The position numbers and the translations under genes are program-made. A stretch of DNA of 21,594 bases, taken from a virus. Of this stretch, positions 1 through 15,012 are shown in pieces. The notes below the pieces were generated by a model, which worked only from the letters and a program-made list of their open reading frames with translations, was not told where the DNA came from and made no database searches. The stretch lies in IMG/VR virus record IMGVR_UViG_3300028920_000298, positions 1 to 21,594 of that record. One strand, 5' to 3'. How positions within the stretch are numbered: the stretch's first letter is position 1; each line of letters opens with the position of its first letter.

Positions 1-1750
1 CAATAACTGAGTTGGGTAGGTAAGTAGCAATGTCACCGATATCGTTAATACTCGCATTTTTAGTCTGTAGTTCGGTAAGCCAACCTCCTATTGTACAGTC
101 CCAGGAAAGCTCAAGTACAGGATTAAGTTCTTCTCCGAATGAAGCGGTATCATCGAATGTTCCTGCATCCAAGTTGCTTTTGTATCTACGCGCCAAGGTT
201 TCAGTTCCACCCGCGTGGGATACGATATAGCCGTCGGTAGTTGAAGAGCCTGAGTATAGAACTCCCGTATCATCTCCTGAATTAAGTACCGTAAAGGCCC
301 CTATATTCATAGTATCCAAGGTATAGGCATCCCTAACGATATTATAGTTTAAAACCCTATTGTTATAGGCAGCGTCAGATATGTCAGAGGTATAAGCAAA
401 TTTATATGTATTATCGTAAAAAACTCCTACGGCGTTTTCAATGTCAGCCTGGGAAATATCACGTACCTCTTGAGTAACTGAATCAGACACCAGCCGAGAA
501 GACATACCATCAAATAGATAGAGGCCGTCTCTTCCCCGATAAAAGAGGCCCAAAGGAGATACGGCCACACTATAAGGAGCCGGGCATCCTATTTTAGAGT
601 ATACTCCGCTAACGTACCAGTCGGTGGACGGTGTACCTTCAGTATAATATTTAGATATAGAGTTAGTTTTTCCTATAGTCAATAGTCCGCGAAAGGTTTT
701 TATAAATGTTATTTTGTCTCCGTCGTCTTTTTGAATTCTTTCAAAGTGAGTCGGATAGAAAAAGTCAGGGTTGTATATGTCGCTAAAATATAGATAAGAA
801 GGATAGGTTACATTTCCCGCTACAAAGGTATACTCATTATGATTGTACCATAAATTTCCAGTTGGAGGAGAACAATCATATTTTCCGGTAGTATCCCACG
901 CAGTCTGGCCCGTAAGAGTAGCGTCAGTCATTGTATCTGCGTAAACTGAAGTAGTATTGTCTTCGATCGTAGTAACTAGGTAATAACTGGTTTCAGCTTC
1001 TGCGGCAGCTTGGCTTGCCGCACCCGATATTCGATATATTTGTCGAGACGTAGTTCCTGTGGGCCCTATAGGAATGTCAGTTAAATATATATCCCGAACT
1101 GCAGCCCCTGTTAAAAGGGGATTACTTTTTGCCTGGGAGTAATAGGTAACTCCGCTGACCACGAACATTACCTTGTATACGTACCATTTTGCAGCGGTTA
1201 AATTGGCTCCTGTATTAAGTTCAGCGAATGGGGCACCTAGTTCAGCGCAAAGCTCCGTAGACGTACGTGAACCATCGGTATTCGCGGTAACTTGTGTATG
1301 ACCGTCGTATTTTATAGGGCGATCGGAATTGTTACCCCCTATGCATAGATCGTTGTAGGTAATGAATTGCCATCTTTTACCATCTGACAGTCCGGCATCA
1401 ATCGTTTGTGCCGTTCCGTCATTGTCTATTTTTAGAGTAGTTCCTGTAGCTGCCACTGTATAGGCTGTTCCATCGTTTTTATAGTAACGATGAAGCCCCG
1501 TAATAGCTGAAGTTCCCATATCGATTACACTAATTAAACTATTTCGCTTGCATAAAGCTGCGTATTTCTCGTTAACACGAAAATTCTCGTACCGATCCGC
1601 TGATTCGTTCGGAGAATTACTATCGGATACGTGGCTATTTAGTCCCTTGCTGAAATCAGAGAGTATAAAAGCTTGAAAGGGTTTTTCAGCTGCATTTGAG
1701 CTAAAAACCACTCCCATGCTGAGCGTCAATACAATAAGTAATTTCTTCAT
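1..1750 (-). CDS. Phage propeller-type tail-hub / DNA-stabilisation-like protein with signal peptide, 3' end missing
   Basis: This reading frame is open from an ATG at 1750 to the left edge, giving at least 583 residues. The start overlaps the stop of the upstream gene as ATGA. The first 21 residues (MKKLLIVLTLSMGVVFSSNAA) look like a classical Sec signal peptide. After it comes a stretch with GLN, NEsAdryeNF and a later R, the usual opening of short-tail phage structural proteins related by position to P22 gp10. The middle, about residues 300-460, has blade-like repeats: a YLYFSDIYNP segment, then GCPAPYSV and GRDGLYLFDG. I infer a beta-propeller protein at the tail hub or head-tail junction that plugs or stabilises packaged DNA. 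The gene follows a likely adaptor gene, which fits. A signal peptide on such a protein is unexpected. The family assignment is from pattern memory only; the stop lies outside the window. Confidence 0.7.
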   Translation of the reverse strand, partial: MKKLLIVLTLSMGVVFSSNAAEKPFQAFILSDFSKGLNSHVSDSNSPNESADRYENFRVNEKYAALCKRNSLISVIDMGTSAITGLHRYYKNDGTAYTVAATGTTLKIDNDGTAQTIDAGLSDGKRWQFITYNDLCIGGNNSDRPIKYDGHTQVTANTDGSRTSTELCAELGAPFAELNTGANLTAAKWYVYKVMFVVSGVTYYSQAKSNPLLTGAAVRDIYLTDIPIGPTGTTSRQIYRISGAASQAAAEAETSYYLVTTIEDNTTSVYADTMTDATLTGQTAWDTTGKYDCSPPTGNLWYNHNEYTFVAGNVTYPSYLYFSDIYNPDFFYPTHFERIQKDDGDKITFIKTFRGLLTIGKTNSISKYYTEGTPSTDWYVSGVYSKIGCPAPYSVAVSPLGLFYRGRDGLYLFDGMSSRLVSDSVTQEVRDISQADIENAVGVFYDNTYKFAYTSDISDAAYNNRVLNYNIVRDAYTLDTMNIGAFTVLNSGDDTGVLYSGSSTTDGYIVSHAGGTETLARRYKSNLDAGTFDDTASFGEELNPVLELSWDCTIGGWLTELQTKNASINDIGDIATYLPNSVI

Positions 1751-2457
1751 CGTATAACAGGTCCTTGCCATTTTGCGGTTTGGTCTAAGTCGGGACGTCT
1801 ACGTATTAAGTCATGCTTCTCTTTTCGCTCTTTAACGTATAAATTTTGATTACGATTAAATTCATCGTTCATGGTATCTTGCCCCAACATGGGTATTATT
1901 TTCCAGCGCGCATAGTAACAGATAGCAAAGTCAAATATTTCCAGGTGAGAAAGCTTAGATGTCGATCCTACGAAAGGATAATGACCCGTATCGGACATAT
2001 CCGTAGGAAGTTTAGTATAGAAATTCCAGAATCCATCTGAAAGAGAATCTGAAGGATGAGGAACTATATATAGGTTGTCACCGTCAATGGCGTAGTCTTC
2101 GGGACTTCCTGAGGAAATTTCATGCCAGTTAGGGCGATTTTCATCAAGCCACTCTATTGTACGTGGACTAAGCTTTTTCCACTTAGGTGAATCTCCGTCC
2201 CCTGAATTCCACCACAATCCTCCGCCCCCCTGGACAAGAAAATCCCCTAGGGCCGATGACAGTGTGTAGGGGTTTGCAGCCGATCCTTGATCAGCTACGG
2301 CATTAAATTTTTTATTCGTAGGTAATAGCTCGCAGAAAGCTGTTAAATCCACTACCCCCGCGTTAAGAATAGGGTCCAGGACGGTATCGGCTATCACGGA
2401 CGACTTACTTCCGGGAACCATAGCTCTAACGATAGCTCTAAAATTTTCAAGTGTCAT
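1747..2457 (-). CDS. Probable head-tail adaptor / connector protein
   Basis: A 236-residue protein without signal peptide or membrane helix. It starts with ATG behind a GGGG ribosome-binding site and its TGA overlaps the start of the next gene. The N-terminus is helical (TLENFRAIVRAMVP). The centre carries the motif NWHEISSGSPEDYAID followed by NLYIVPHPSDS and FWNFYTKLP, and the C-terminus is helical with a basic tail rich in R and K. This order of a W-H-P-x-Y-like segment, an I-P-x-P strand and helices is what I associate with adaptor proteins of podovirus-like phages, which join the portal to the tail tube (P22 gp4 by role). Its position directly before the propeller-type protein supports that. 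The call rests on motif memory and context. Confidence 0.55.
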   Translation of the reverse strand: MTLENFRAIVRAMVPGSKSSVIADTVLDPILNAGVVDLTAFCELLPTNKKFNAVADQGSAANPYTLSSALGDFLVQGGGGLWWNSGDGDSPKWKKLSPRTIEWLDENRPNWHEISSGSPEDYAIDGDNLYIVPHPSDSLSDGFWNFYTKLPTDMSDTGHYPFVGSTSKLSHLEIFDFAICYYARWKIIPMLGQDTMNDEFNRNQNLYVKERKEKHDLIRRRPDLDQTAKWQGPVIR

Positions 2458-2466
2458 AATGTCCCC

Positions 2467-2775
2467 TTATTTTATCTCTCCCTTGTCCTTGAGAATGTTT
2501 ACTATTGCCACGATTAAAAGGTCGAGCCAGCGGTCTTTAATATCTTGCACTGTCAATATTGTTCGAGCGAAATCAAAAACTTTCTGCCACTTTTCGTCGC
2601 CGGAGATATTCTCTGTAGACACCTCGATTATCTTACCCTTAATGGCGTCAAAGGCCTCCCGACCTATCTGGTAGGATACTTGCAGTATGAGGGCCTGCAT
2701 CTTCTCAATCAAGTCGCTTAAAAACGGCCATTTCCACCCATGAACCCAATTATAAAGTTTTGTTAGAAATGTCAT
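2467..2775 (-). CDS. Small helical protein, unknown function
   Basis: A 102-residue protein starting with ATG seven bases after a strong AAAGGAG site. It is predicted mostly helical, with a tryptophan-rich N-terminus (YNWVHGWKWPF), an acidic/basic middle, and a hydrophobic C-terminal helix around residues 81-97 (DRWLDLLIVAIVNILK) that is amphipathic rather than clearly membrane-spanning. It ends nine bases before the adaptor gene. The gene lies in a run of tiny genes that includes holin-like proteins, so a lysis or membrane-associated role is possible, but nothing in the sequence shows it. I do not recognise a family. Confidence 0.65.
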   Translation of the reverse strand: MTFLTKLYNWVHGWKWPFLSDLIEKMQALILQVSYQIGREAFDAIKGKIIEVSTENISGDEKWQKVFDFARTILTVQDIKDRWLDLLIVAIVNILKDKGEIK

Positions 2776-2926
2776 GTTTTTTCTCCTTTAGTTTTCTGCG
2801 TGCTATAATATCCTGTGTCCACGTAGTCCGTTTCTGGTCGTGGGGGTCGAAAGGTTTGCCGTCGGAAATTCGTATCTGCAAACCCTTTCCCTTAATTATT
2901 GAGCAAAGTTTTTCTAAAAGTGACAT
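2750..2926 (-). CDS. Small basic protein, overlaps both neighbours
   Basis: A 58-residue frame starting at an ATG inside the end of the preceding gene and ending inside the beginning of the next one, with 116 bases of its own between them. The translation looks protein-like: MSLLEKLCSIIKGKGLQIRI, then SDGKPFDPHDQKRTTWTQDI and a very basic tail (ARRKLKEKKHD). Without it, 116 bases of this tightly packed region would be empty, which is the main argument for the gene. There is no strong ribosome-binding site, so coupled translation from the upstream gene would be needed. No family is recognised. Confidence 0.45.
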   Translation of the reverse strand: MSLLEKLCSIIKGKGLQIRISDGKPFDPHDQKRTTWTQDIIARRKLKEKKHDISNKTL

Positions 2927-3116
2927 ACCATTTGTCCACCCAGGGAATTATAATATCCCTTATTATATCGGCACGTTTTTCCCCGACCTCGTTCTCAACA
3001 ATCTTCCTTATTTCATTGGCGGCGTCCTCGGCGTATTCCTCTGCGGGATGGTCTTGCACGAACCCCTGTAAGAATTTAACCACGCCCACGCCTTTAATGA
3101 ATTTGAGAATACTCAT
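2892..3116 (-). CDS. Small helical protein, unknown function
   Basis: A 74-residue protein with a hydrophobic, glycine-containing N-terminus (ILKFIKGVGVVKFLQGF) followed by a strongly acidic helical stretch (AEEYAEDAANEIRKIVENEV) and a second helix ending in WVDKWYVTF. The N-terminal segment could lie on a membrane surface but is too short and too charged for a confident transmembrane helix. The ATG at 3116 has no good ribosome-binding site. It resembles the 102-residue protein downstream in general make-up (hydrophobic start, helical acidic middle) but I see no clear sequence homology. Function unknown. Confidence 0.5.
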   Translation of the reverse strand: MSILKFIKGVGVVKFLQGFVQDHPAEEYAEDAANEIRKIVENEVGEKRADIIRDIIIPWVDKWYVTFRKTLLNN

Positions 3117-3272
3117 ATAAAATAGAGGCGGCTATCAGCCCGTTGGGTAGTTAAGTTTGGTTATTCACCTTATCGTGTTTCCACGCCCTGCTATTTCCTT
3201 GCTGATTAGGGGTTGCCAATCTTGGGAATTTCACCAAGTGGCTGGGGGTAACGACTTCCCCCTGTATTTAGC
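3117..3272. other. Intergenic gap with one GC-rich hairpin
   Basis: These 156 bases carry no convincing gene. The only structure seen is an inverted repeat of five G and five C (3244-3248 and 3258-3262) with AA/TT pairs possible inside the loop. It lies ten bases after the stop of the holin-like gene. There is no T-run after it on either strand, so it is not a typical intrinsic terminator; it may protect the 3' end of a processed message. Confidence 0.35.
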
Positions 3273-3470
3273 TCAGCCGCCTTTTTCTCCTTTTTTATCA
3301 TCTTCCGACGTCCTTGACCTGTATAAATCTCTGCCCATAGCCGTTACTACAGCAATAAGACCGCCTATCGCCATGTCGGTATATTTAGTCGTCGGCCCAT
3401 ATCCTACGAGTAGCACCACGGCTAAAAGTGTGTATAGAAACCCTACGAATTTCCAATCTACTGTTTTCAT
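3273..3470 (-). CDS. Holin-like two-helix membrane protein
   Basis: A 65-residue protein from the ATG at 3470, chosen over an in-frame GTG at 3482 because the ATG has an AAGGTGG site eight bases upstream and overlaps the previous stop as ATGA. Two hydrophobic helices are visible: residues 7-24 (KFVGFLYTLLAVVLLVGY) and about 32-46 (DMAIGGLIAVVTAMG). The C-terminal 17 residues are strongly charged and end in KGEKGG. Small size, two helices with a short turn and a charged tail match the general design of class II holins, which form the inner-membrane lesion for lysis. No endolysin is found next to it, so this remains a topology-based call. Confidence 0.5.
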   Translation of the reverse strand: MKTVDWKFVGFLYTLLAVVLLVGYGPTTKYTDMAIGGLIAVVTAMGRDLYRSRTSEDDKKGEKGG

Positions 3471-3679
3471 TGCATTATCCACCTTATTAACCAGCTTTTA
3501 AAACTTTCTTCCTCGCCTTTATACCACCAGACCTGACAATACCTACATAATCTTTTTACCCGCTTGTCAATCCCGTCATATCTGGGGTATAAGTCCGTAT
3601 ATGTGTCGTGCCGGAAATGCTCAAAGAACTTCGGGGGTTTATGCTCCCACATATTAGTTACTATGTCCCATTTTACCAT
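3467..3679 (-). CDS. Small tryptophan-rich protein with CxxC
   Basis: A 70-residue protein starting with ATG six bases after GAGAGG. It has seven tryptophans, a basic middle (DKRVKRL) and a single CRYC pair at residues 45-48, too little for a complete zinc site unless histidines 13, 21 and 24 contribute. Its start codon lies inside one copy of a 14-base direct repeat. The stop overlaps the start of the holin-like gene, so the two are probably translated together. Function unknown. Confidence 0.6.
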   Translation of the reverse strand: MVKWDIVTNMWEHKPPKFFEHFRHDTYTDLYPRYDGIDKRVKRLCRYCQVWWYKGEEESFKSWLIRWIMQ

Positions 3680-3716
3680 TGTTAACCTCTCGTGATTGGT
3701 TAACCATTGTTAACCT
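3675..3716. repeat. Two 14-base direct repeats around a start codon
   Basis: The sequence ACCATTGTTAACCT occurs at 3675-3688 and again at 3703-3716. The second copy is joined on its left by GGTTAA, making an inverted repeat GGTTAA...TTAACC with a six-base loop. On the coding strand the first copy holds the start codon and part of the ribosome-binding region of the 70-residue gene; the second overlaps the stop of the 31-residue gene. It may be a binding site or the trace of a small local duplication. Confidence 0.7.
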
Positions 3717-3810
3717 ATTTTCTTCCCCACTTGATTATAAGCATTATCATTATTGCGTGAACCACGCCCCCAACGTAACAGAGCATATAGTTTATTTCAG
3801 CTTGAGACAT
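3715..3810 (-). CDS. 31-residue single-helix membrane peptide
   Basis: A small frame MSQAEINYMLCYVGGVVHAI followed by MIMLIIKWGRK. Residues 9-27 form one hydrophobic helix, with a basic C-terminal tail (KWGRK) that predicts the tail in the cytoplasm by the positive-inside rule. The ATG at 3810 lies inside the end of the preceding gene, in another frame. No strong ribosome-binding site is seen, so coupled translation is assumed. Among the neighbouring small membrane proteins it could be a lysis accessory factor such as a pinholin or antiholin, but size and topology alone do not prove it. Confidence 0.5.
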   Translation of the reverse strand: MSQAEINYMLCYVGGVVHAIMIMLIIKWGRK

Positions 3811-3938
3811 TTACAGCCCTGACGCTTTAACATTCCCCATGCCATTTCAATTACCATACCCCAATTTTCTTCTTCGGCATGGTCCTTGATGTGTTGCTTA
3901 ATCCGTAGTAATTCTTTATCGTTGTCTATCTTCATCAT
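3792..3938 (-). CDS. 48-residue small cytoplasmic protein
   Basis: A frame starting MMKIDNDKELLRIKQHIKDH and ending RQGCKCLKLK. It is charged, helical in make-up, and has a CKC pair near the end. Two adjacent ATG codons (3938 and 3935) are possible starts; GAGGG close upstream favours the second. It begins five bases after the stop of the preceding gene and overlaps the next one by 19 bases. Coding is supported by the good protein-like composition and tight packing. Function unknown. Confidence 0.55.
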   Translation of the reverse strand: MMKIDNDKELLRIKQHIKDHAEEENWGMVIEMAWGMLKRQGCKCLKLK

Positions 3939-3942
3939 GCCC

Positions 3943-4230
3943 TCACCTGGCTTGCCTGTTAGCATTATCATTGTCCCCCCCTTGTAGGGCTAGTCGTAAA
4001 TACCTAACCTCCACTTTTAGTTCGGCGACAACAGTCAAAAGTTCGGTATTGATTTTGCTTTGGTCAGACAGAGCCGCCTCTCTCTTAGTTGTCTCTAACG
4101 CAATAGCACAGCTTAACGGGGCGTAAACTATGGTATAAATCAGGGATATGATGACTAATGTGGCGGCTATAATCGCACCGCCCCACCGCATAATTGCCCA
4201 GAACCAATCATTCGCATTGCCGTTTGCCAT
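3943..4230 (-). CDS. Membrane-anchored coiled-coil protein, spanin-like
   Basis: A 95-residue protein starting with ATG behind GGGGG. Residues about 15-37 form one long hydrophobic helix (MRWGGAIIAATLVIISLIYT). Residues 47-82 are a likely coiled coil (TTKREAALSDQSKINTELLT, continuing with regular leucine and valine spacing), and the tail is polar. One N-terminal membrane anchor followed by a coiled coil is the design of inner-membrane spanins (Rz-type), which help breach the outer membrane in Gram-negative hosts. It is also the design of many unrelated small phage proteins, and no lipoprotein partner with a lipobox was found. It overlaps the preceding gene by 23 bases. Confidence 0.5.
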   Translation of the reverse strand: MANGNANDWFWAIMRWGGAIIAATLVIISLIYTIVYAPLSCAIALETTKREAALSDQSKINTELLTVVAELKVEVRYLRLALQGGDNDNANRQAR

Positions 4231-4378
4231 GCTTACCCCCTAGCCATTTTTTTACCGCTTTTTTATACTGCTTTGTGTGGTCGTATTCACATTGGACTTC
4301 ACGCTTTAATGTCTCAATCAGTTCCTCGGCAGTTACAACATTGAAGTCGCCTTTAAGATAATCGCCTATCATTATCAT
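4208..4378 (-). CDS. Small basic protein, unknown function
   Basis: A 56-residue protein if translation starts at the ATG at 4378, which overlaps the preceding stop as ATGA. A longer in-frame version (from 4453) would run across the preceding gene and is unlikely. The protein has an acidic middle (TAEELIETLKREVQCEYDH) and a lysine-rich C-terminus (KKAVKKWLGGKHGKRQCE) with cysteines at positions 29 and 55. No family is recognised. Confidence 0.55.
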   Translation of the reverse strand: MIMIGDYLKGDFNVVTAEELIETLKREVQCEYDHTKQYKKAVKKWLGGKHGKRQCE

Positions 4379-4671
4379 TTTATTTCCAGAGTTTTTGACG
4401 TGGTTTTTTCTGTCACGCCTTGCTTGTCGGCCTCGGCAATCAGGGCGTTCCACTTGTCAATCTCGGCCTGTAGTTCGTCCGCCTTTGCCTGATAATTAGC
4501 CTGTTGCTTTACAGCCTCGTCCCTTTTGGCTATGAGGTCGACGTAGTTGTATCGGGTGACTTTTTCAATCGTTTCGGTCTCCACCAAAGCCCCGTCGTCA
4601 CCCTTTTCGTAGGTCTTAGCATAAGCGGTTACGGCAAACAGCATCATTAAAACAAACCATATTAACCTCAT
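4375..4671 (-). CDS. Exported small coiled-coil protein
   Basis: A 98-residue protein whose first 18 residues (MRLIWFVLMMLFAVTAYA) form a typical Sec signal peptide with an AYA cleavage site before KTYE. The mature part of about 80 residues contains a coiled coil from roughly residue 43 to 85 (LIAKRDEAVKQQANYQAKAD and on). No lipobox cysteine is present, so a soluble periplasmic product is predicted. The ATG overlaps the stop of the spike gene as ATGA, so both are made together. It could be a periplasmic chaperone or partner of the likewise signal-bearing spike, or a soluble lysis factor. No family is recognised. Confidence 0.65.
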   Translation of the reverse strand: MRLIWFVLMMLFAVTAYAKTYEKGDDGALVETETIEKVTRYNYVDLIAKRDEAVKQQANYQAKADELQAEIDKWNALIAEADKQGVTEKTTSKTLEIK

Positions 4672-7600
4672 AAGTTATACGCTCCTTTCATAAGCAAGTA
4701 TATCTGCCACATCTGCGTAGCCGTAGCCTCTACGCCTTTGACGAAGAACAACGCCCCCATATCTCCTAAGAACGGATAATTAGCACCATTCGCGCCTATC
4801 TCCGTGGTTGTGGTAGAGGCCTCCATTGCGACATAGGAAACATCATTGGAAGCCGTCGCCGCAACTGCCACGCCGTCCACATAGAACGTAATGCCGTTCA
4901 TTGAAGTCGCACCGCCACCGCCGTCATAAGTTACGCCTAAGATATGGTCGCCCGTTGATACTGCGCCGTCTGTTAAACTGTTGACCAACCCTACCGAAGC
5001 GTCCCTACTATACCACTGTATTTTTTCGTCAGCGGTCAATACCCATATCCATTGGTCGAACCATACGCCTATAATGTCTTGTAAATCAGCCCCGTTGACT
5101 ACCTCTGCTTTTACAACGATAGTAACCTTTTGGTCGTTAGAGCCGTCGCCTAAATCAAAGTCGCTGTCGTTGCCCATGTAAAGGCGGTCATTCGTGCCGT
5201 CGAAGTCAAGCTCATAACAGAAACCCTTATATAATTGGTCGGAAGCTGTCCAGTCTGCGTCGGGGTCGTAAGTGAAGTCGTTGTTAGCTGGTGAATAGTC
5301 CTGTTCCGTCCCCCCGTCCGAAGGCGTGAGCCAGAGTAGCGCAAGGTCTAAATCTCCAAGAACACCGAGAACATCGGCGGCGAGATTGTAGGAGAACTGG
5401 TCGGAAATCGTGCCACCCTGTAATTCGCCCGATGATATAATCAGGTTTCCCGTCCCCTCCTCTCTGGGGTTTATTATTGTGTTTGTGTTGTCAAACACAA
5501 CTGAACAGTCGTTAGAGTTACCGATGTATATTTTATCATCGTCTCCCCCCAGGTGCATCCTCCCACCTGCGTTATATAACTGCCAGTTACTGGCCGCCTT
5601 TGTTAATTCAGCCAGATATATTTGATACCCGTTAGTTATCGTTTCAGTCGAATCTGCGTGTTTACCGATGTCCGCCATATATATACCCGCAAACGTCTGG
5701 ACTGTGCCTGCACTGTTTTGGGTTAGCTGAGGATTGGAATATATGCCATATAGGGATAGAGAGGTTCCGGCAGTATGATATACTGTCGGCTGTGATAGTA
5801 TACCAATAGTAGGGTAGGTATCAACCGACCCGACAATTTGCGGCGCGATGGAAAGCCCGTAGAGATAAGCCGTCGAATTAGAGCTAGGGTGTATCCTGGG
5901 TTGGAAAAGCATACCGTAAATAGTCCCTGACGTATCATTGTAACTTCTGTATGCGTTAATTACTCGTGAATCGTTTGGTGCTACGCCCAAACCCAAATTA
6001 CCCGTAAACTGATGACCACCAGCCCCCACCAACTGTGAGTTGTATTGCACATGAGTTCCGTCATACGAGATTGCCGCATCTTTGTCCGTCCCTATCTCGA
6101 TTTTATCGCCGTCAGTTGTTAATCGTATATTACCCGACACCTCCAATTTCTCGTCGGGGTCAGATACCCCAATACCGACGTTACCCGTGCTTTCCTCTAC
6201 CTTTAAAAGTGTCTGGTCTGTGCCGTCCCTGACATAGAAGTCCTGATTGCCGTCATTATCGTCGTCAAGGTCTATCACTATATCGGCATCATTAGCACTA
6301 ATTTTAGCCAGTGAGCCATTAGTAAGATTTAGGTTTCCGTTCAGAGATAGGGCGTTGGTGCTTGCATTCCACCCCAAGCCATTATCGGTTTTTATTTCGC
6401 CTCCCGTGCTAGCTTCGAAAATAGCGAAAAAGCACGAAGTGTCGGTAGATGTATCAGCTAATGTTGACGTGTTCCCATTAACGTCCAACTCCGCACCAGG
6501 ACTCGTCGTCCCGATGCCGACGTTGCCGGTATCGCTTTCTATGTGTAACTTTGTATCTCCATCAACTTGAAAATATAAATCATCACCAGAATCAATAAAG
6601 AATTTTCTTCCATCTACTGTTTTAAATTCAACGCCCAACGAAGAGTTTGCGATACGAAACCTCTCATCACCACCGTAAGTGAAAAGCATCCATAATTGAC
6701 TAGCAGCATTTAAATCTGATAGTTTCCAAACTGGGTCATCTGATAATCTCCCTCCACTGCCATATGTTGAATAAACGGCACCATTCACATCCAACTTCGC
6801 CGACGGACTCGTCGTCCCGATGCCGACGTTACCCGTGCAAGTATTTGCACTCGGCACGCTCGGCACGCCAGCGGCTATCCACGCCATGCCAGCGATATAA
6901 CTGCCTGTGTCGTAAAATATGTTCGTGCCTTCCCCACAGGGAATGTCAATGTAAGCCGTATATGTCCCCGTCGAAGTCCCTCGCCATATCCTTAAAACGG
7001 TATTGGCATATGTGTAGGTAGATATCGCAAAACTCTTATTATCGCCCGTAGCGGTTTCACTGACCTCTGCTGAATTGTCGGTATTGTAAGAGCCTTGATA
7101 GATTGCTACAGTATAGTAATAGGTCGTGGTATTCGCAATCGCACCAGGATAGTCCGTCCCCTCGGTGACTGTTATAGTGGGATTGGCGATAGTCTTATAC
7201 GCCGCTATCGTGGCATTGTTCGGGCTTCCGTCACTATTTACACCCTCTAAAGCCCACGTCCCTGCAACGTTGTGCAACAGAACATCACCCGTTAAAAGGC
7301 GTTTATTGTTTGCTAAAAGTGTATTTAGTGTGCCATCAGTAGCCGTTGCGGTCAATCCCATGTTATCGTAGATTAACCTAGTGAGGGAATACAGGAGATG
7401 TTTATTATTAGTCAGCCTTACTGTGGAGTTTTCTTCAATAGCGTTTATCTTTAAGAAATCAACCCCTACAGTTGTGGCTGTGGTGATATTCCTTACGATA
7501 GTGTTATTCTCTATCGTGACATGACAAGGCGTGTTTCCGTCGTTGTCTATATAAATAGGCTCATAGGTATATATATCCCATAAGTAATTATTTCGTATCG

Positions 7601-8615
7601 TAACGTCGCTATCGTTTATTGTTATTGCCGCCCCGTTGTCCGAATACTCTAAATGGTTACCCTCCATAATAACATCACGGCAGTTGTTAAAAATATATCT
7701 TCCCCCGACGTTATCGTGTATTCTAGCCCCCTGTGCGTTCTCTAGGGTCACTATGTCAACGTCTAAGGCACTAATCTCGGATATATCCCAAGCGTCGCCG
7801 TGGTCGCCCTGAACTATCCCCAAAGACCCTGCGACGGGATTAGTCCAGTAAACGCCCTTAATCCTGACGTTATCCGTATACCCTTCGCCATTACAGAAAT
7901 AATCTAACCCCGAACACTTAATATTTTCCGTAGCGAATCCGGCTTCATTATAATATATCAACGACGGCTTGCCTGTGGAATCATCGCCATACACATAGAC
8001 GTTCTTCAATATGAGCCGAGGCCCTGCGGGATAGCTTAAAACCTTGCTCCCTCCACTTGTTTCGTTAAGATGGAAGATGTATTTATCCGTAGCAAATACT
8101 GGATAAATCACCGCACCTTGCCCGTCACCTTGAATTACATAAGTGAAGTTTGTGGCATTATGGTCGAGGTAAAGACTATCAGTTATCTTATACTGTCCCC
8201 ACGCCGAAAGTAGGATTGTCCCACCCCCTGCGGCTTCACAGGCGTCAATACAATCCTGAAATGCGGTAGTGTCGTCTGTCGAGCCATCACCTGTCATGCC
8301 ATACGCCGCACCCGCAAAGAAATTAGCGGAATTGCGGGAGGACATTATATATGAGCCGATATTCCAGTCTCCCGTAGCCGTTGACGTGCCGTCGTTTTTC
8401 CAATAATAGGTGTCCAAAGCCTCCGACATAGTTGAATTCTTCCACTGAAGTAAAGAAGAATCGTATACCAGAATATCCTCGTCCGTTAAGGTATTCTCCC
8501 TATCTATATTACAGTCTAAAAGACTTCGAAGCTGGAATTCATCCCATTCTGCGTAGCTTGCAGAACACACAGCTAAAGCTAAAACCGCAACTATAAAAAC
8601 TTTAATTTTTCTCAC
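4668..8615 (-). CDS. Giant tail spike/fibre with signal peptide, beta-helix, VGIG modules and LamG-like end
   Basis: A 1315-residue protein with a GTG start overlapping the previous stop; GAGG lies just upstream. Residues 1-22 (MRKIKVFIVAVLALAVCSAS, then YA) form a Sec signal peptide. Residues 42-66 hold the DEDILVYDSSLLQWKN motif common in phage fibres. Residues 98-130 (GMTGDGSTDDTTAFQDCIDA, then GGG) begin a pectate-lyase-3-type right-handed beta-helix, with N-x-I-type repeats to about 420. Residues 470-590 look like a fibronectin-type insert. Three NVGIG modules lie at 596-612, 698-714 and 812-828, with a weak fourth near 873; such modules are common in trimeric fibres. Residues 1115-1300 resemble a LamG/concanavalin sugar-binding domain. 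It probably recognises or degrades host polysaccharide; no catalytic residues could be assigned. A signal peptide is highly unusual for a virion fibre. Confidence 0.85.
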   Translation of the reverse strand: MRKIKVFIVAVLALAVCSASYAEWDEFQLRSLLDCNIDRENTLTDEDILVYDSSLLQWKNSTMSEALDTYYWKNDGTSTATGDWNIGSYIMSSRNSANFFAGAAYGMTGDGSTDDTTAFQDCIDACEAAGGGTILLSAWGQYKITDSLYLDHNATNFTYVIQGDGQGAVIYPVFATDKYIFHLNETSGGSKVLSYPAGPRLILKNVYVYGDDSTGKPSLIYYNEAGFATENIKCSGLDYFCNGEGYTDNVRIKGVYWTNPVAGSLGIVQGDHGDAWDISEISALDVDIVTLENAQGARIHDNVGGRYIFNNCRDVIMEGNHLEYSDNGAAITINDSDVTIRNNYLWDIYTYEPIYIDNDGNTPCHVTIENNTIVRNITTATTVGVDFLKINAIEENSTVRLTNNKHLLYSLTRLIYDNMGLTATATDGTLNTLLANNKRLLTGDVLLHNVAGTWALEGVNSDGSPNNATIAAYKTIANPTITVTEGTDYPGAIANTTTYYYTVAIYQGSYNTDNSAEVSETATGDNKSFAISTYTYANTVLRIWRGTSTGTYTAYIDIPCGEGTNIFYDTGSYIAGMAWIAAGVPSVPSANTCTGNVGIGTTSPSAKLDVNGAVYSTYGSGGRLSDDPVWKLSDLNAASQLWMLFTYGGDERFRIANSSLGVEFKTVDGRKFFIDSGDDLYFQVDGDTKLHIESDTGNVGIGTTSPGAELDVNGNTSTLADTSTDTSCFFAIFEASTGGEIKTDNGLGWNASTNALSLNGNLNLTNGSLAKISANDADIVIDLDDDNDGNQDFYVRDGTDQTLLKVEESTGNVGIGVSDPDEKLEVSGNIRLTTDGDKIEIGTDKDAAISYDGTHVQYNSQLVGAGGHQFTGNLGLGVAPNDSRVINAYRSYNDTSGTIYGMLFQPRIHPSSNSTAYLYGLSIAPQIVGSVDTYPTIGILSQPTVYHTAGTSLSLYGIYSNPQLTQNSAGTVQTFAGIYMADIGKHADSTETITNGYQIYLAELTKAASNWQLYNAGGRMHLGGDDDKIYIGNSNDCSVVFDNTNTIINPREEGTGNLIISSGELQGGTISDQFSYNLAADVLGVLGDLDLALLWLTPSDGGTEQDYSPANNDFTYDPDADWTASDQLYKGFCYELDFDGTNDRLYMGNDSDFDLGDGSNDQKVTIVVKAEVVNGADLQDIIGVWFDQWIWVLTADEKIQWYSRDASVGLVNSLTDGAVSTGDHILGVTYDGGGGATSMNGITFYVDGVAVAATASNDVSYVAMEASTTTTEIGANGANYPFLGDMGALFFVKGVEATATQMWQIYLLMKGAYNL
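6499..6830. repeat. 26-base perfect direct repeat inside the spike gene
   Basis: The 26 bases at 6499-6524 are repeated exactly at 6805-6830, starting 306 bases (102 codons) apart and in the same reading frame. Each copy encodes the VGIGTTSP part of a VGIG module. The third module near 6170 is related but diverged. Such repeats allow in-frame deletion, duplication or exchange of the segment between them. Confidence 0.9.
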
Positions 8616-9504
8616 TGTTCCTCAGCTTGTTCAACATAGTTAGCTTTTTCTGAACCTCCCGATCACGTAAATCTAGGTATCTTTCTCGTTCATCGGCTGA
8701 AATTTCTCTTTCTTTAACTGACCTTTCTCTGGCCTCGACATTCTGGGAATAAAGCTTTATATGCTTCTTATGCTCTTGAAGCTCTTCACGCTCTTTTTGA
8801 AGCTTTTGAAATTCCTCTTTCGATCCGATAAGCTTCTTAAGCGAGGCCTGTTCGGATTTAAGAAGGTCCTGGTCTTTCTTTATCGCAGCTCTCTGGACCT
8901 GAATCTGACTGAGTATTTCCTGGTTCTGAAGAAGAACCTTTTCGTAGTATTTTTTATCATTGGAAAGCCGATTCGATTCCTTTAAGGTTTCCTCCTGCGC
9001 TTGAGCTGTCGCTTTTCTTAGAGCTTCCAAGGCCGACATCTCCTTTTTCAGCGTTTCCTGTGCCTCTTTAATCGACTTAAGTTTCTTGGACGTATCTTCG
9101 GAAACCTCTTGATTCGACTTGAAGAAGGATTCTTTATCTTCTGATAGTTTCTTCTTTTCTCGAAGTAAATTGCTTTTTTCGGCTTCTAAAACCTCTCGAT
9201 CTTTTTTCGCCGACTCAATTTCTTCATTTAGCATTTGAACTTTCACCGTCCATCCGGACTGAAGCTCTTTTAATTCTTTCTCACGTACCTCGAGGGCCTC
9301 TTTCCTTTTAGACGTAGAGCTCTCTAAAGCTGAAAGCTTACTGGAAAAAGCTTTAGATAATTCAGCCTCTTTCTTAGAAAGAAGCTCCTGAGCTTCTTGA
9401 GTTAACTTACCTCGCGACTTCTCTAGGCTTTGAATATCCTCCCGAAGCTTTTTCTTTCGATTCTCCAGATCCTCTATTAATTGTTTTAAGGTATCTACGT
9501 CCAT
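8602..9504 (-). CDS. 300-residue continuous coiled-coil protein
   Basis: Starts with ATG behind AAAGGGGGT and overlaps the spike gene by 14 bases. Nearly the whole chain is charged heptad sequence (LEDLENRKKKLREDIQSLEK and similar to the end), dominated by K, E, L, Q and S, with no proline-rich or globular part and no signal peptide or membrane helix. It is far too short and too uniformly coiled for a normal tape-measure protein, and lacks the hydrophobic stretches of one. Placement directly before the spike suggests a tail needle, fibre-attachment rod, or assembly scaffold for the spike, or a cytoplasmic partner of the exported proteins. The product is certain to be a coiled coil; the role is inferred only from position. 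Confidence 0.75.
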   Translation of the reverse strand: MDVDTLKQLIEDLENRKKKLREDIQSLEKSRGKLTQEAQELLSKKEAELSKAFSSKLSALESSTSKRKEALEVREKELKELQSGWTVKVQMLNEEIESAKKDREVLEAEKSNLLREKKKLSEDKESFFKSNQEVSEDTSKKLKSIKEAQETLKKEMSALEALRKATAQAQEETLKESNRLSNDKKYYEKVLLQNQEILSQIQVQRAAIKKDQDLLKSEQASLKKLIGSKEEFQKLQKEREELQEHKKHIKLYSQNVEARERSVKEREISADERERYLDLRDREVQKKLTMLNKLRNSEKN

Positions 9505-9519
9505 TTGAACCTACCCCCT

Positions 9520-9900
9520 TTATTCAAAGTAAATCGTTACGATTGTTCCGGGGCCCTGGTGAATATATACCTGCTTGTCAAGTATTTTAGGACGCGGGAA
9601 CCATAAACCTCCTGGAGTGAGCTCTTCCAATTCTGCTTCATCCAGAATCTCATCCCACTGAGTCATAGGACCGTCGTAGATAGTTACTACCAGCTCTGCA
9701 TTCTTTCCGGGAATGCGGGTCATTCTCCACCCTAAGACAATGCTCTCTCGAGGAATGATATCCAGGGAAATCCCGGTAGTAATGTAGTCGTCCGTGTCAT
9801 TAATTACGGCAGTAGACTTCCAGTGAGAGGGTACCTGGGCGAAAGCAGCCGTAGAAAACGATAGAATTAAAATAAGACTTAAAAGTATACGTTTTTTCAT
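9520..9900 (-). CDS. Exported beta-rich protein, paralogue A
   Basis: A 126-residue protein with a clear Sec signal peptide at residues 1-21 (MKKRILLSLILILSFSTAAF, then A), cut before QVPS. An AGGAGG site lies nine bases before the ATG. The mature 105 residues look all-beta and align by eye with the protein at 11346-11795: VLGWR with ILGYR, AELVVTIYDG with SEFVVSLWDA, LDEAEL with FDEAEW, and a shared C-terminal strand set (HQGPGTIVTIYFE with RQGPNTTVVIYYD). The pair must have arisen by duplication. No family is recognised. Possible roles are a minor virion surface protein assembled outside the cytoplasm, or a secreted modifier of receptor binding. Confidence 0.75.
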   Translation of the reverse strand: MKKRILLSLILILSFSTAAFAQVPSHWKSTAVINDTDDYITTGISLDIIPRESIVLGWRMTRIPGKNAELVVTIYDGPMTQWDEILDEAELEELTPGGLWFPRPKILDKQVYIHQGPGTIVTIYFE

Positions 9901-9901
9901 T

Positions 9902-10303
9902 TTACGCTGCCTCCTGCTTTGATAGCTTTGCGTTGAGTACGGTATCGGCCGAGTTTCCTGTCAGGCCTGTGATTTTCAAACGGAAGTATTTCATAGGAGT
10001 CAAGGGAAGCTTTACATGAACCCACGTATTCTCGGTGGTGAATCCGTCTACGATATCTCCCACCCCCTCAGGCTCTTTATAGCTACTATCCGAAGCGCAT
10101 TCGGTAGTTGGCAACTGAAAAGACTCCTCTATTTCCAGTTTCAGATTTATACCCCCGGCGTCAGAAGCAGCTTTATAGGACAGGCTGAAAAACTTCGCCA
10201 TACCTACAGGAATTGAGCGCGAGTAAACCGTAGTCTCCCCCGCAACTACTATATCGGGAGATCCCGCTAAATTGGTTAAAACGTTAAGACCTATTATGTC
10301 CAT
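9902..10303 (-). CDS. Beta-rich putative structural protein
   Basis: A 133-residue protein starting at an ATG five bases after GGAG and overlapping the end of the polymerase-like gene by ten bases. It has no signal peptide. The sequence alternates hydrophobic and polar residues in strands (IVVAGETTVYSRSIPVGMAK, MKYFRLKITGLTGNSADTVL), typical of a compact beta-sandwich seen in many minor head or tail proteins. Cysteine is present once, at residue 69. Its neighbours on both sides are exported or membrane proteins, so its cytoplasmic nature stands out. Function unknown. Confidence 0.6.
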   Translation of the reverse strand: MDIIGLNVLTNLAGSPDIVVAGETTVYSRSIPVGMAKFFSLSYKAASDAGGINLKLEIEESFQLPTTECASDSSYKEPEGVGDIVDGFTTENTWVHVKLPLTPMKYFRLKITGLTGNSADTVLNAKLSKQEAA

Positions 10304-11331
10304 ATAAGCTCCTTCTTTTTAAGTGATTCTCCGTACACCAGAGCCAGCATGCATACTACGAATAACGCATTGCTGCCCCAAAACATCGTTAATTGAACAA
10401 AGCTTAGTATAGCTATCGTTAAGCAAGGTATCAGGAACCACGATCCTTTAACCTGCGTAAATATTCTCCACATAAACATACCTAAGGGAATCCAAATTAA
10501 AGCTCCCATGGCGTGAGCTATATTAATGTAATCATTCTGTCGATACAGTCCCGTTTCACCCCAAGAAGTAGATAGAAAGAAGTTATCTCTAAGAATAAGC
10601 TTGTTGTAACCGTGCCCCAAAAGAGGATGGTTGATCACCCCGTGAGTATATTGTTCGAACGGTTTCTGAAGGAGAACGTCCTGAATCCCAACCGGGTTTT
10701 CTGGCTTTTGAAAGGTCATATCGTACCACAACGGTACTCGACAGTCCCACTTTTTCATAAACCAGTCTTTATTAATTAAAAAAAATGACGCAAGAAGGAA
10801 TAGAATTAAAAAGCCTACCTTTTTATTTTTGGAAAAGAAATAAGCCAGGGAAGCTATACCTAAAGCAAATATAGCCGATCCTCTACCCCCTTTTATAGCG
10901 TATTCTATTCCCGGAATGAGAGCTAAAGGTAAAGTTACCCACATTAAGCGTAGATTCCTTCCTTTATTAACTAAAAGTACGAATATCGCACATCCACAAA
11001 AAGGATATACCCACCCTTCAAATAGAAGATAAAAGTTTAAGTATTGAAATGTTATACTATTTACGCAATAGTAAAATGTATGAATGAACATACTGGAGAA
11101 AGCCATTAGACAGAAAATAGTAAGGCTAGGAAAACATTCGTTCCTTTCATTAGGATAGCTAAACCCTACCATCCATAAAACCCAGGCGAATCCGCACAGG
11201 TAAAACCCCATAATCGGCCGAGGAACCAGGCCCACTCCCCCTATCCCGTAGATAGCTATAATATCAAAAAGGGTAGGACGCGGCCGTAGAAAATAGTCGT
11301 ACAGCTTTTGTCCTACCCCCTTTAATATCAT
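10294..11331 (-). CDS. Polytopic membrane protein resembling O-antigen polymerase/ligase (Wzy/WaaL-like)
   Basis: A 345-residue protein, ATG eight bases after GGGAG. About nine or ten hydrophobic helices can be counted. GGRGSAIFALGI at residues 148-159 matches the RG-containing segment of Wzy proteins. A long hydrophilic loop (about 187-265) carries INHPLLGHGYN at 233-243, followed by QNDYINIAHAMGALIWIPLG at 265-284, the HP-x-G-x-G and N-Y-x-G-x-L pattern of the O-antigen ligase/polymerase family. Such enzymes join lipid-linked sugar units in the periplasm. Serotype-converting phages such as Pseudomonas D3 carry polymerases that alter the receptor and block superinfection; that role is inferred here. 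The gene is tightly packed among late genes with no visible promoter of its own. The assignment rests on topology and these motifs. Confidence 0.55.
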   Translation of the reverse strand: MILKGVGQKLYDYFLRPRPTLFDIIAIYGIGGVGLVPRPIMGFYLCGFAWVLWMVGFSYPNERNECFPSLTIFCLMAFSSMFIHTFYYCVNSITFQYLNFYLLFEGWVYPFCGCAIFVLLVNKGRNLRLMWVTLPLALIPGIEYAIKGGRGSAIFALGIASLAYFFSKNKKVGFLILFLLASFFLINKDWFMKKWDCRVPLWYDMTFQKPENPVGIQDVLLQKPFEQYTHGVINHPLLGHGYNKLILRDNFFLSTSWGETGLYRQNDYINIAHAMGALIWIPLGMFMWRIFTQVKGSWFLIPCLTIAILSFVQLTMFWGSNALFVVCMLALVYGESLKKKELIWT

Positions 11332-11345
11332 CGTTTCATTCTCCC

Positions 11346-11795
11346 TTAGTACTTTCGTGTATCGTCGTAATAGATGACCACTGTGGTATTAGGTCCCTGC
11401 CTAACCGTCAACTGAGTATTCAGTTTTTTCGGCAAGGGATACCACATAGGATCCCAGGGCCCTGTTGCTCCCCATTCTGCCTCGTCGAACATATCTGCGG
11501 CAGTCTGGGTATCGGCAGCATCCCATAGCGACACGACGAATTCTGAACTCGCTGTCGTGTCATAGGGGGCTATACGATAGCCCAATATCCGGCAATAGGC
11601 CGGAATGATGGTAGACGTGGATATATTGGTATCAGCATATTCCCCCGTAGCATTCGTGCACACGTAGGTACTGCCCGTTCGGTGCGGACTTTCGTACGCT
11701 CCGAAAGCTGACATAGACCACGCCAGTAACAGGACGACCAAGAACGCCCCGAGGCGTCTGCCTCCCCTATTCTTCTTCTTACATTTGAAAATCAT
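11346..11795 (-). CDS. Exported beta-rich protein, paralogue B
   Basis: A 149-residue protein with a signal-peptide-like start: a basic region (KCKKKNRGGRR), a hydrophobic core (LGAFLVVLLLAWSMS) and AFG before AYES. The double arginine recalls Tat signals, but the rest of the Tat motif is not present, so Sec export is more likely. The mature part is all-beta and homologous by eye to the product of 9520-9900. This copy has two extra cysteines, near residues 46 and 68, that could form a disulfide outside the cytoplasm. AGGAGG lies upstream and the gene begins one base after the previous stop. It directly precedes the polymerase-like gene. Confidence 0.75.
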   Translation of the reverse strand: MIFKCKKKNRGGRRLGAFLVVLLLAWSMSAFGAYESPHRTGSTYVCTNATGEYADTNISTSTIIPAYCRILGYRIAPYDTTASSEFVVSLWDAADTQTAADMFDEAEWGATGPWDPMWYPLPKKLNTQLTVRQGPNTTVVIYYDDTRKY

Positions 11796-12277: not shown

Positions 12278-13273
12278 CTAGGAGTAAGACGCCGAGGAGC
12301 TTCCCCCGAGTCGTGTCCAGTTTCTGAAGTCCTTCAGGAAAACTCCTATCCTGATCCGGATCGAAGCGTGATAGCCCGCGTTAGGCTCATGCCTATAATA
12401 CCGAATCTCGGGATTTTTCCTCTCGTGGAACTGCCAACTATCCGACTTCGCCTTCCCGATGTACGCCACAGGGTCGGTGTCGTTAAGATAGTCCCAGTCC
12501 ATGGGCTTTACTGTCTTATAGTAGGGGTTTTCGTCGTTGATGTCGTCGCCGGGCATCCCCTTGGAGGTCATCGTTATCCTCCAGGCCTTGAAGTAGCTGG
12601 CTCCGGGCTTGGTCAGAATCGTATCCGCCGGGTTACGAATGATCTGATCTCTCTCGTTACGATTGTTCGTCGAAACGTGGAGATTGTATACTCGTTCGAA
12701 ATCACCGGGTATTACATCCAAACCCGATACGGAATTGTAATACGTACCTCCGCCTTTGGTCGTGTGTTCATTACCCGAAATGGCGAACACGGGCTTACCA
12801 TCGTACAGCAAATTACCTGAAGGATCGGTATTTCCCGTATGAGTTCCGTTAAGTACCCAGTCTCCTGAGGTAGCTCCGCCGACATTGAATACCCTCGCTG
12901 CTAGCGTCTCTTTAGCTATACGAACCTGCTCACCCCACGTAGCTGCGAAAGCCTTTATGAGGTTTCCGAACTTTATCGCGTCCTCCGAGGCTTCCGGGGA
13001 AAACGCCAAGCCATCCGAAAAGGTCCAGTATTTCACGTAATAAGACCAACCCTCTACGGGCGTCTTAAACTCGATATTCTGGCCTTCTACCGTATGGCGT
13101 GTCAAAGGCCCCGCGCCGATTATCTGCGTCTCCTTATCTCCCGCCCCTGTTACACCCGTTTTCACGGAGTATATCAGGTTATAGCGGGTAGACTCCTTAC
13201 CGTAGGCTTTGAATACGGCCTTGTAGGAGTCTTTCATAAATACCGCTACTAAATCACTTCTCTGTCCAGGCAT
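12278..13273 (-). CDS. Major capsid protein, probable HK97 fold
   Basis: A 331-residue protein with a very strong AAGGAGG site before its ATG. It follows the scaffold and a candidate decoration protein, the normal place for the coat gene. Residues 93-129 (PEASEDAIKFGNLIKAFAAT and on to AARVFN) make a long helix like the spine helix of HK97-type coats, followed by a glycine-rich loop region (GGATSGDWVLNGTHTGNTDP). Mixed strands and loops make up the rest, ending in a beta-rich C-terminus (YHASIRIRIGVFLKDFRNW). There is no protease domain and no obvious N-terminal delta domain, which fits a separate scaffold. The coat function is inferred from context, size and this pattern. Confidence 0.8.
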   Translation of the reverse strand: MPGQRSDLVAVFMKDSYKAVFKAYGKESTRYNLIYSVKTGVTGAGDKETQIIGAGPLTRHTVEGQNIEFKTPVEGWSYYVKYWTFSDGLAFSPEASEDAIKFGNLIKAFAATWGEQVRIAKETLAARVFNVGGATSGDWVLNGTHTGNTDPSGNLLYDGKPVFAISGNEHTTKGGGTYYNSVSGLDVIPGDFERVYNLHVSTNNRNERDQIIRNPADTILTKPGASYFKAWRITMTSKGMPGDDINDENPYYKTVKPMDWDYLNDTDPVAYIGKAKSDSWQFHERKNPEIRYYRHEPNAGYHASIRIRIGVFLKDFRNWTRLGGSSSASYS

Positions 13274-13291: not shown

Positions 13292-13810
13292 TTAAGCAGC
13301 AATCATTACTGCCGGATTCGGCCGAACGTATGCGTAGCCGTCTGACGTATACCCTGTTACCGCTGCAACCGCACTGGCCGCCTTGCCTCCGAGGACTATG
13401 AGTAAGTCGTCGGTGGAGTTGGTCAGATCTGCGAACTGGACATAACTGGTTCCGTCCCGGTATATGTCGTGCGCAGTGCCTATAACCGTATAGGCGTAAT
13501 TCACGGTATAAGACGATCCGTCATACGCGACGGGCATCTTAAACACCGCATCAGGGCTGATTATTACACTCAACTCCTCGGCCCCTGCCGTGGCAGATGT
13601 AGTATAATAATCGTATCCGGAAGCATGTCCCGGAACTTCAGCCCAGCCGAAGATGTAGCTGGAGTTCGCGTCTACCACTGTTCCGTACCCGGAAGCAATG
13701 TCTACGAACTTCCCACCACGATCTACGAATTTCTGACTTGCGGCCATGGCCAGCGGCCACCTTGTAAGGCCCCCTGTAACCCAGTCGTACTTCAGCTGTT
13801 GCGTAGTCAT
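13292..13810 (-). CDS. Candidate capsid decoration protein
   Basis: A 172-residue protein whose ATG overlaps the scaffold stop as ATGA. It is rich in alternating small and aromatic residues (YDYYTTSATAGAEELSVIIS, SYTVNYAYTVIGTAHDIYRD), predicting an all-beta fold, with an Ala-rich C-terminus (GGKAASAVAAV). No signal or membrane segment. A small beta protein between scaffold and coat gene is the usual position of head decoration or stabilising proteins. There is no recognised sequence motif, so the call is from position and composition. Confidence 0.55.
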   Translation of the reverse strand: MTTQQLKYDWVTGGLTRWPLAMAASQKFVDRGGKFVDIASGYGTVVDANSSYIFGWAEVPGHASGYDYYTTSATAGAEELSVIISPDAVFKMPVAYDGSSYTVNYAYTVIGTAHDIYRDGTSYVQFADLTNSTDDLLIVLGGKAASAVAAVTGYTSDGYAYVRPNPAVMIAA

Positions 13811-15012
13811 GTCTCTTTTTCTCCTTCTTGTTTCTTCATCACATCAAGATAAGCTTCGTACTTATCTTCCTCAGACATGGTATCAATGTTGAACATATCG
13901 AGTGCCTCTTTTTTCTGCGCCTCAGTGAGGGTGGCAGGTTTTTTTGAGGGTCCTCCCGATTTTTTACGGTCAGACTTGATACCAAGTATCTTAGCTTCTT
14001 CTTTTCCTTTATTGTACCCCTCCGTGTAAGCTTTTTTCTTCTCGCTCTCCAGACTGGCTTCTATCTCCCCGGCGTGCTTACCTTTCACCCAGTAGAGAAT
14101 ATCATCCAGACTATAATTTTCCTGCAAAACCGCCGCATCTGAAGTATTGTCCAGAACTTCTCGAATCTCTTCGGAATACTTCTTATCGTTTTCTGGAAGA
14201 GAAGTTACCAGTTTCTCACGTTTATCCTTCGCCTGTACCTTTGAATTAGCTAAAGTTTCCTTTGCTTTCAGGGCCATGTGGTTACGTATGTTGTCAGCTA
14301 TCATAGCCAGTACGCCTTTGTCCGTAACACCCTCTGTCTGATCGGGCTTTGATCCCCTGAACTGCTCTATAGCAAGGTCCCGCGTAAGTACGGTACCGTT
14401 TACCTTCACTTTCCCCGTATCCAGGTAGGTACTTAGGACTTCATCGTTCGTCATATTTTCAATGGTCCTCACCGGGACATACTCCCGAAGTGATTTGGCC
14501 TCTTCTTGAGTTTTCGTGAGCGTCCTCTGGATATGAAGAAATGCATCGGCCAAATCCTCGGGATTCTCGTACTTTTTTCGTATGGCCTTTATATGATTTC
14601 TTTCCTCCTTAGCGATGTCGAATGTAATCTTTTTCTTTAAGGCGTAAGCTTCGGTGGCTTCTTTCTCGACCTTAATTTCAGCCTCTTCGCGAGCCTTTAC
14701 TAGCTCAGCCTTTCGGGTTTTTTCCTCTTCCTTTAGATCCTTATCTTCAGAGGCTAAGATACGCTCGTCCTCTTTTTGCCGAGCTTCTTCTTCCTCTTTT
14801 TTCTTTATCTCTTCCTCGTTTTCTTCCTTTTCCTCGTTTTCTTTTACGTCCTCTTCCTTTTCCTCTTCCTTTTTCTCTTCTTTTTCCTCTTTCTTTTCTT
14901 TCTTATTCTCGCCTCCCTCAAGCTCTTCGCGCGCTTCCTCAGCAATGCTATCCATTTCTTCCTGTTCTGCGATCTGGGGATCTTTTACCTCTGCCGCTTT
15001 TTCCGGTGCCAT
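13807..15012 (-). CDS. Capsid scaffold protein
   Basis: A 401-residue, highly charged, largely helical protein with no signal or membrane segment. Residues about 27-117 are an almost pure K/E tract (EEKEEKKEEEKEEDVKENEE is one part), probably a long coiled coil or disordered stalk. The middle (residues 130-300) has a helical domain containing PEDLADAFLHIQRTLTKTQE, and the C-terminus is basic (GYNKGKEEAKILGIKSDRKK) with a final helical pair (KKEALDMFNIDTMSEEDKYE). A basic, helical C-terminus that binds coat and a charged body are the hallmarks of phage scaffolds such as P22 gp8. Location just before decoration and coat genes agrees. The ATG lies eight bases after AAAGGAG. Confidence 0.8.
   Translation of the reverse strand: MAPEKAAEVKDPQIAEQEEMDSIAEEAREELEGGENKKEKKEEKEEKKEEEKEEDVKENEEKEENEEEIKKKEEEEARQKEDERILASEDKDLKEEEKTRKAELVKAREEAEIKVEKEATEAYALKKKITFDIAKEERNHIKAIRKKYENPEDLADAFLHIQRTLTKTQEEAKSLREYVPVRTIENMTNDEVLSTYLDTGKVKVNGTVLTRDLAIEQFRGSKPDQTEGVTDKGVLAMIADNIRNHMALKAKETLANSKVQAKDKREKLVTSLPENDKKYSEEIREVLDNTSDAAVLQENYSLDDILYWVKGKHAGEIEASLESEKKKAYTEGYNKGKEEAKILGIKSDRKKSGGPSKKPATLTEAQKKEALDMFNIDTMSEEDKYEAYLDVMKKQEGEKET

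Follow-up and report, generated by a model that had tools for sequence, protein, structure and literature searches.

Sec-type signal peptides on predicted outer tail proteins in a lineage of tailed phages

Tailed phages are the most studied bacterial viruses, and standard teaching places their assembly entirely in the cytoplasm. Filamentous phages, by comparison, are known to make virion proteins with Sec signal peptides: pVIII and pIII of M13 are membrane-anchored and are added to the particle outside the cytoplasm, the phage being extruded without lysis. Here we analyse one IMG/VR contig of 21,594 bases (21.6 kb), IMGVR_UViG_3300028920_000298 – ‘the window’, by which we mean the whole stretch of DNA – together with its relatives. 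The tails of P22 (gp4/gp10/gp9) and T7 (gp11/gp12/gp17) have the same layout as those predicted for this clade, with an adaptor followed by a hub or nozzle, plus internal ejection proteins. However, while the T7 and P22 tail proteins that we scanned lack a leader, outer tail proteins of the clade, including the putative nozzle/hub, begin with Sec-type signal peptides.

Signal peptides in the window and in its nozzle homologues

A first-pass annotation of the window had placed Sec leaders at the starts of five minus-strand genes, and all five open reading frames (ORFs) are indeed present, with scores of 5.5–6.8 in our scanner. Signal peptides were called by this simple heuristic of our own, which carries no calibration on proven signal peptides, in combination with comparative evidence. 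The leaders belong to the propeller-type protein that is probably the nozzle/hub (20 aa, positions 1691..1750, MKKLLIVLTLSMGVVFSSNA, predicted cut before AEK), a small coiled-coil protein (18 aa, 4618..4671, MRLIWFVLMMLFAVTAYA, predicted cut before KTY), the spike (22 aa with a GTG start, 8550..8615, MRKIKVFIVAVLALAVCSASYA, predicted cut before EWD), and two proteins here called paralogue A (21 aa, 9838..9900, MKKRILLSLILILSFSTAAFA, predicted cut before QVP) and paralogue B (32 aa, 11700..11795, MIFKCKKKNRGGRRLGAFLVVLLLAWSMSAFG, predicted cut before AYE), the last having an unusually long basic n-region. That these latter two are paralogous, as originally proposed, is borne out by 36% identity (E 1e-18). 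The features expected of Sec/signal peptidase I substrates – a basic n-region, an apolar h-region of 10–15 residues, small residues at -3 and -1 and no lipobox – are found in all five window proteins and in 36/36 clade nozzles. When the N-termini of the same proteins were shuffled, a positive score (at least 4.5) was reached in 0.35% of trials (18/5140), and the few above-threshold matches in T7 and P22 were a spanin and non-virion ORFs. No increase in cysteine content was seen in the signal-bearing proteins.

Gene overlaps, Shine-Dalgarno sites and conservation favour the called starts over alternatives downstream of the hydrophobic segments, and rule out start-site error as the source of the leaders. 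An ATGA overlap of 4 bases joins each of the starts 1750 and 4671 to the stop of the gene before it; for 9900 and 11795 the distance from that stop to the start is 1 base, and sites of the GGAGG/AGGAG type are located upstream of 4671, 9900 and 11795. The nozzle ORF is open already from position 1771, with 1750 as the coupled start.

Used as single sequences, neither the nozzle nor paralogue A retrieved relatives from IMG/VR, and alignments were required. Two scans were made with nozzle alignments, the larger yielding 67 loci; near-copies were removed and intact starts were counted. The comparison of relatives’ N-termini, suggested on first pass, split them cleanly: a signal peptide is present in 36/36 distinct clade nozzles with intact N-termini, that is, in every close homologue, and in 0/15 of the distant, out-group homologues. 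On a maximum-likelihood tree (unrooted) the leader/no-leader label switches once, on a branch with 99/97 support. Since T7 gp12 and P22 gp10 are also leaderless, we prefer gain of the leader over its loss. Among ten sequences, identity averages 29% in the leader and 51% in the mature part; preservation of signal-peptide character at such identity implies selection. Outside the count, locus L092 has a leader-like segment immediately ahead of the mature start, preceded by a read-through region with an antisense HNH endonuclease gene.

Placement of the leaders around the tail nozzle

The protein preceding the nozzle (1747..2457, minus strand) is of the head-to-tail adaptor type of short-tailed phages and has no signal peptide. 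Its AlphaFold model (pLDDT 66) has as top Foldseek matches chains of podophage portal-tail complexes (GP4, SU10, VP1 and KHP30; best E 2.5e-4, prob 1.00, TM about 0.45–0.5), and members of the family immediately precede the nozzle in nine relatives as well as in the window, the position being the same in the wider census. The propeller-type protein itself (2..1750, minus strand, directly after the adaptor, its gene cut by the contig end) is probably the nozzle/hub, judging by this position and by a chain of homology: the clade nozzle matches the MW202497 ‘phage stabilization protein’ at 96.9% and the L035-L044 group at 97.2% in hhalign, and the chain leads on from MW202497 to MW202701, whose ‘phage stabilization protein’ matches PHROG 578, head closure Hc3.

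Signal peptides follow the gene order closely. In the clade they are found at the nozzle position in 34/34 loci, at +1 in 24/28, at +2 in 15/19 and at +3 in 9/15, dropping to 3/37 over positions +4 to +6. The ORF in the adaptor position is signal-positive in 1/30 loci, the exception being a 78-residue ORF in L106. In the out-groups the corresponding figures are 0/15 at the nozzle, 1/71 over the five positions before it, 0/32 over the next three and 5/22 further downstream. Thus, the leaders are confined to the tail exterior, and head, portal, adaptor and ejection proteins are without them; the capsid and adaptor of the window had been recognised as signal-free, on the same strand, from the outset, and no signal peptide was found in either.

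The same picture emerges from relatives reached via terminase and capsid alignments, which include the contigs G002 (44 kb), G003 (49 kb) and G006 (47 kb). These three carry approximately 7–12 strongly signal-bearing genes each, mostly in the interval from the capsid gene to the genes for internal virion proteins. For the window and four relatives together, 31/51 genes of the tail module are signal-positive vs 8/160 elsewhere (Fisher 1.4e-16), a p value to be taken only as a guide, given that genes are non-independent and the module borders were drawn after the pattern was seen; the position census is free of such borders. The giant protein that follows the nozzle module in G006 has a murein hydrolase domain and no leader, as expected of an ejected protein. 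In G003, an SLT protein of the lysozyme type also bears a signal peptide, as would be compatible with Sec-dependent lysis.

Export of the tail exterior and alternative explanations

Cultured phages of Cellulophaga provide virion data on proteins of this kind. Signal peptides are present on 3/12 virion proteins of phi18:3 (Pachyviridae), all encoded by consecutive spike/fibre genes, and on 4/14 virion proteins of phi19:1 (Assiduviridae, tape-measure-bearing), again consecutive and within the spike/fibre cluster; in the crAss-like phi14:2, which infects the same host species, the count is 0/18. Because the GenBank records of phi18:3 and phi19:1 note the signal-bearing spike/fibre proteins as detected by experimental virion tandem mass spectrometry (MS/MS), signal-bearing proteins can be part of tailed-phage particles. 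Gln follows the predicted cut in 6/7 leaders of these two phages, several of the seven being mutually related. Gln is usual after signal peptidase I sites in Bacteroidota, and in P. gingivalis exceeds 60% (PMC5837995). Its presence after 6/7 cuts suggests that the Cellulophaga leaders are real signal peptidase I substrates. Gln follows the cut in 15–21% of leaders in the window’s clade vs 6/7 in Cellulophaga, and at 15–21% a Bacteroidota host for the clade is unsupported by the Gln rule. A leader-plus-anchor module (residues 1-118; L055:34544-36901 and relatives) is approximately 82% identical across Cellulophaga phages of different families, a similarity suggestive of exchange of an exported spike base.

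We favour, as somewhat the better bet, the reading that the outer tail parts carry cleavable Sec leaders: hub, spikes and fibres would be exported, and head and tail would be joined at lysis. Assembly from the periplasmic side or after lysis had been raised as one option on first pass, and it offers the best fit to the distribution of the leaders, which mark exactly the outer tail layer and no head, portal, adaptor or ejection protein. The signal-bearing set (nozzle/hub, spikes, fibres, small accessory proteins) would cross the inner membrane, lose its leaders to signal peptidase I and fold on the periplasmic side. The cytoplasm would retain capsid, portal, adaptor and internal ejection proteins, and there heads would be filled with DNA; once the inner membrane is opened at lysis, the adaptor-closed heads would pick up hub and spikes. 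For the clade, the sequences argue strongly for export of the tail exterior and point to leader cleavage, and we infer that opening of the inner membrane at lysis brings heads and tails together. That filled heads should acquire tail parts so late would not be unreasonable by analogy, because P22 spikes bind heads in vitro. Whether all this amounts to a new assembly route, with cytoplasmic heads, a periplasmic hub and receptor-binding parts, and lysis itself as the last assembly step, is in our estimation evenly balanced.

Several points weigh against this reading. The AlphaFold model of the nozzle is mostly strands and, at pLDDT 49, too poor to support a propeller fold; direct profile comparison with P22 gp10 produced no match, and the PDB yielded no phage tail protein when searched by sequence with the nozzle alignment, with the sister group or with the MW202497 protein. 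Export, cleavage and the place of assembly in the clade are deduced from sequence, and with the hub in the periplasm the adaptor alone would have to seal the DNA-filled heads. The Cellulophaga MS/MS statements are GenBank notes, silent on which N-terminus is in the particle. One family of the tail module (window 9902-10303) mixes leader-bearing and leaderless members. Finally, the search for a clade host gave a single genome locus (L011, a terminase relative), and the nozzle was not found in six genomes of L011’s phylum.

Among the alternatives, the one that survives best, although we deem it unlikely, is that the leaders are uncleaved signal anchors: the tail proteins would sit in the inner membrane, heads would dock there, and the membrane would be the assembly site. 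Hydrophobic N-termini would serve for anchoring too, and virion proteins that have signal peptides and are membrane-anchored are, as textbooks have it, the rule in filamentous phages. However, the apolar runs of the nozzle leaders are short (median uninterrupted length of 14.5 residues), an (A/V/S/G/T)xA site is present in 27/36 of them, none has a lipobox and the full-length clade hubs have no strong second membrane segment, all of which disfavours the first-pass suggestion of retained anchors. The predicted cut falls just ahead of the conserved nozzle core, at a median distance of 11 residues; in the four leaderless out-group proteins with the core placed near the start, Met1 lies 10–13 residues before the core. 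Moreover, an anchor so oriented would have the hub facing the periplasm, on the opposite side of the membrane from the portal.

Improbable, in our view, is that the leaders are tags recognised by a cytoplasmic chaperone or protease, which would delay folding and be removed within the cytoplasm. Removal of a leader without export has a precedent in P22 gp7, which according to its record note loses 20 N-terminal residues to the host protease OpdA. Yet in our scan gp7 has no Sec-like leader, while 36/36 nozzles retain n-, h- and c-regions, and the Cellulophaga leaders carry the Gln typical after signal peptidase I sites of that phylum.

More doubtful still is the possibility that the signal-bearing proteins act at the host surface – in capsule removal, superinfection block or receptor masking – and remain outside the particle. 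Several of them resemble spikes, and exported surface proteins do occur among phage products, Lom of lambda being one (PMC12309495). Against this option, which had also been put forward for the window, the clade’s hub gene directly follows the gene in the adaptor position, and the phi18:3 and phi19:1 records list the signal-bearing proteins among those found in virions by MS/MS. Lastly, it is barely credible that the leaders are non-functional debris inherited from spikes captured from secreted host enzymes: the Cellulophaga spikes are annotated as pectate lyases and the window spike is weakly pectate-lyase-like (residues 104-154, E 2e-4), but the hub is not a host enzyme, its out-group homologues are leaderless, and leaders so divergent yet all functional-looking imply selection.

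Gene layout and comparison with known systems

The virion genes of the window lie on the minus strand in the order terminase, portal, scaffold-like, decoration-like, capsid, tail module, adaptor and propeller-type protein. Pfam, NCBIfam and PHROGs scans of the window proteins gave almost no matches. The terminase large subunit (19182..20909) does match PHROG terminases and is 55–61% identical to IMG/VR relatives. The portal protein (16513..18555), for which no direct family match was found, is assigned by synteny, its family occurring in the same order in G002, G003, G006, L003 and L004. A scaffold-like charged protein (13807..15012), preceding the capsid gene, and a small protein that is decoration-like by position (13292..13810) both have families represented in five relatives. 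The major capsid protein (12278..13273), likewise assigned by synteny, has homologues 50–57% identical in the relatives. None of these five proteins has a signal peptide. Directly after the capsid gene (11994-12266), a small zinc-ribbon-like protein (CPVC...CEEC) is conserved among relatives.

The tail module opens with paralogue B (149 aa, 11346..11795). Signal peptides are found on its homologues in L093 and L106, and on the L093 homologue of paralogue A (126 aa, 9520..9900). Between the two paralogues lies a 345-aa multi-pass membrane protein (10294-11331), of the O-antigen polymerase/ligase type by eye, for which neither a family nor a plasmid match was found. The 133-aa protein at 9902..10303 matches PHROG 28213 and has no signal peptide. 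While its family is leaderless in the window and in most relatives, a leader is present in L079:4777-5247, L089:1403-2002 and L096:1406-1852; leaders are thus gained or lost within one family. Next come a 300-aa coiled-coil protein without a signal peptide (8602..9504; homologue in L083) and the 1315-aa spike/fibre-like protein (4668..8615), which has TTSPxxKLDVNG repeats and, in L096 and L106, relatives that also bear signal peptides. The module also includes the 98-aa coiled-coil protein (4375..4671); in related contigs, signal-bearing proteins of similar size are encoded just upstream of the adaptor.

In the relatives, one ORF of 4174 codons (G003 18415-30939) stands among the internal virion genes, with likely counterparts of 1958 residues in G006 and 1157 in G002. 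The ends of G003 and G006 carry an exact 127-base terminal repeat, in both contigs, which is most likely an assembler k-mer on a circular or permuted genome and not biological. Small HNH-endonuclease-like genes lie among the tail genes (G002 18334-18999 and 32256-32591, G006 1860-2399, L030:3605-4183 and L092:4213-4653), the one in L092 directly preceding the nozzle, and their antisense frames resemble membrane proteins. Bacterium SM23_31 has a phage-like contig whose terminase is related and in which a signal-bearing protein follows a capsid-like gene (L011:11723-12205).

The first-pass annotation knew of no described tailed-phage system of this kind. That holds insofar as we found no paper describing exported tail proteins in tailed phages among the open-licence literature, with a description in a subscription journal being possible; it does not hold for sequence records, since those of Cellulophaga phages already contain the pattern. 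A large lineage, together with cultured Cellulophaga phages from no fewer than two families, encodes an adsorption apparatus with export signals. If export is real, completion of the particle would be tied to lysis, the periplasm would be where tail proteins fold, and its proteases and chaperones would influence which particles become infectious. As Cellulophaga isolates already exist, the question of export is open to testing in culture. Annotators should retain the signal peptides of presumed virion genes and not trim them as start-site errors.

Filamentous phages differ from the clade in that the clade phage is tailed and its mature hubs have no strong further membrane segment. Homologous to the clade nozzle are the hub-type ‘phage stabilization proteins’ of MW202497 and MW202701 and the L035-L044 group; these are leaderless and start directly with the protein body. 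A likeness in leader pattern exists with phi18:3 and phi46:3 (Pachyviridae) and phi19:1: as in the window’s clade, Sec signal peptides are present on the products of several adjacent tail genes, and in phi18:3 and phi19:1, again as in the clade, the portal and head proteins are leaderless. The Cellulophaga spikes are unrelated to the window spike. In phi18:3 and phi19:1 the core tail proteins, too, are leaderless – including, in phi18:3, a 1612-aa structural protein that is possibly its hub – whereas in the window’s clade the hub itself bears the leader.

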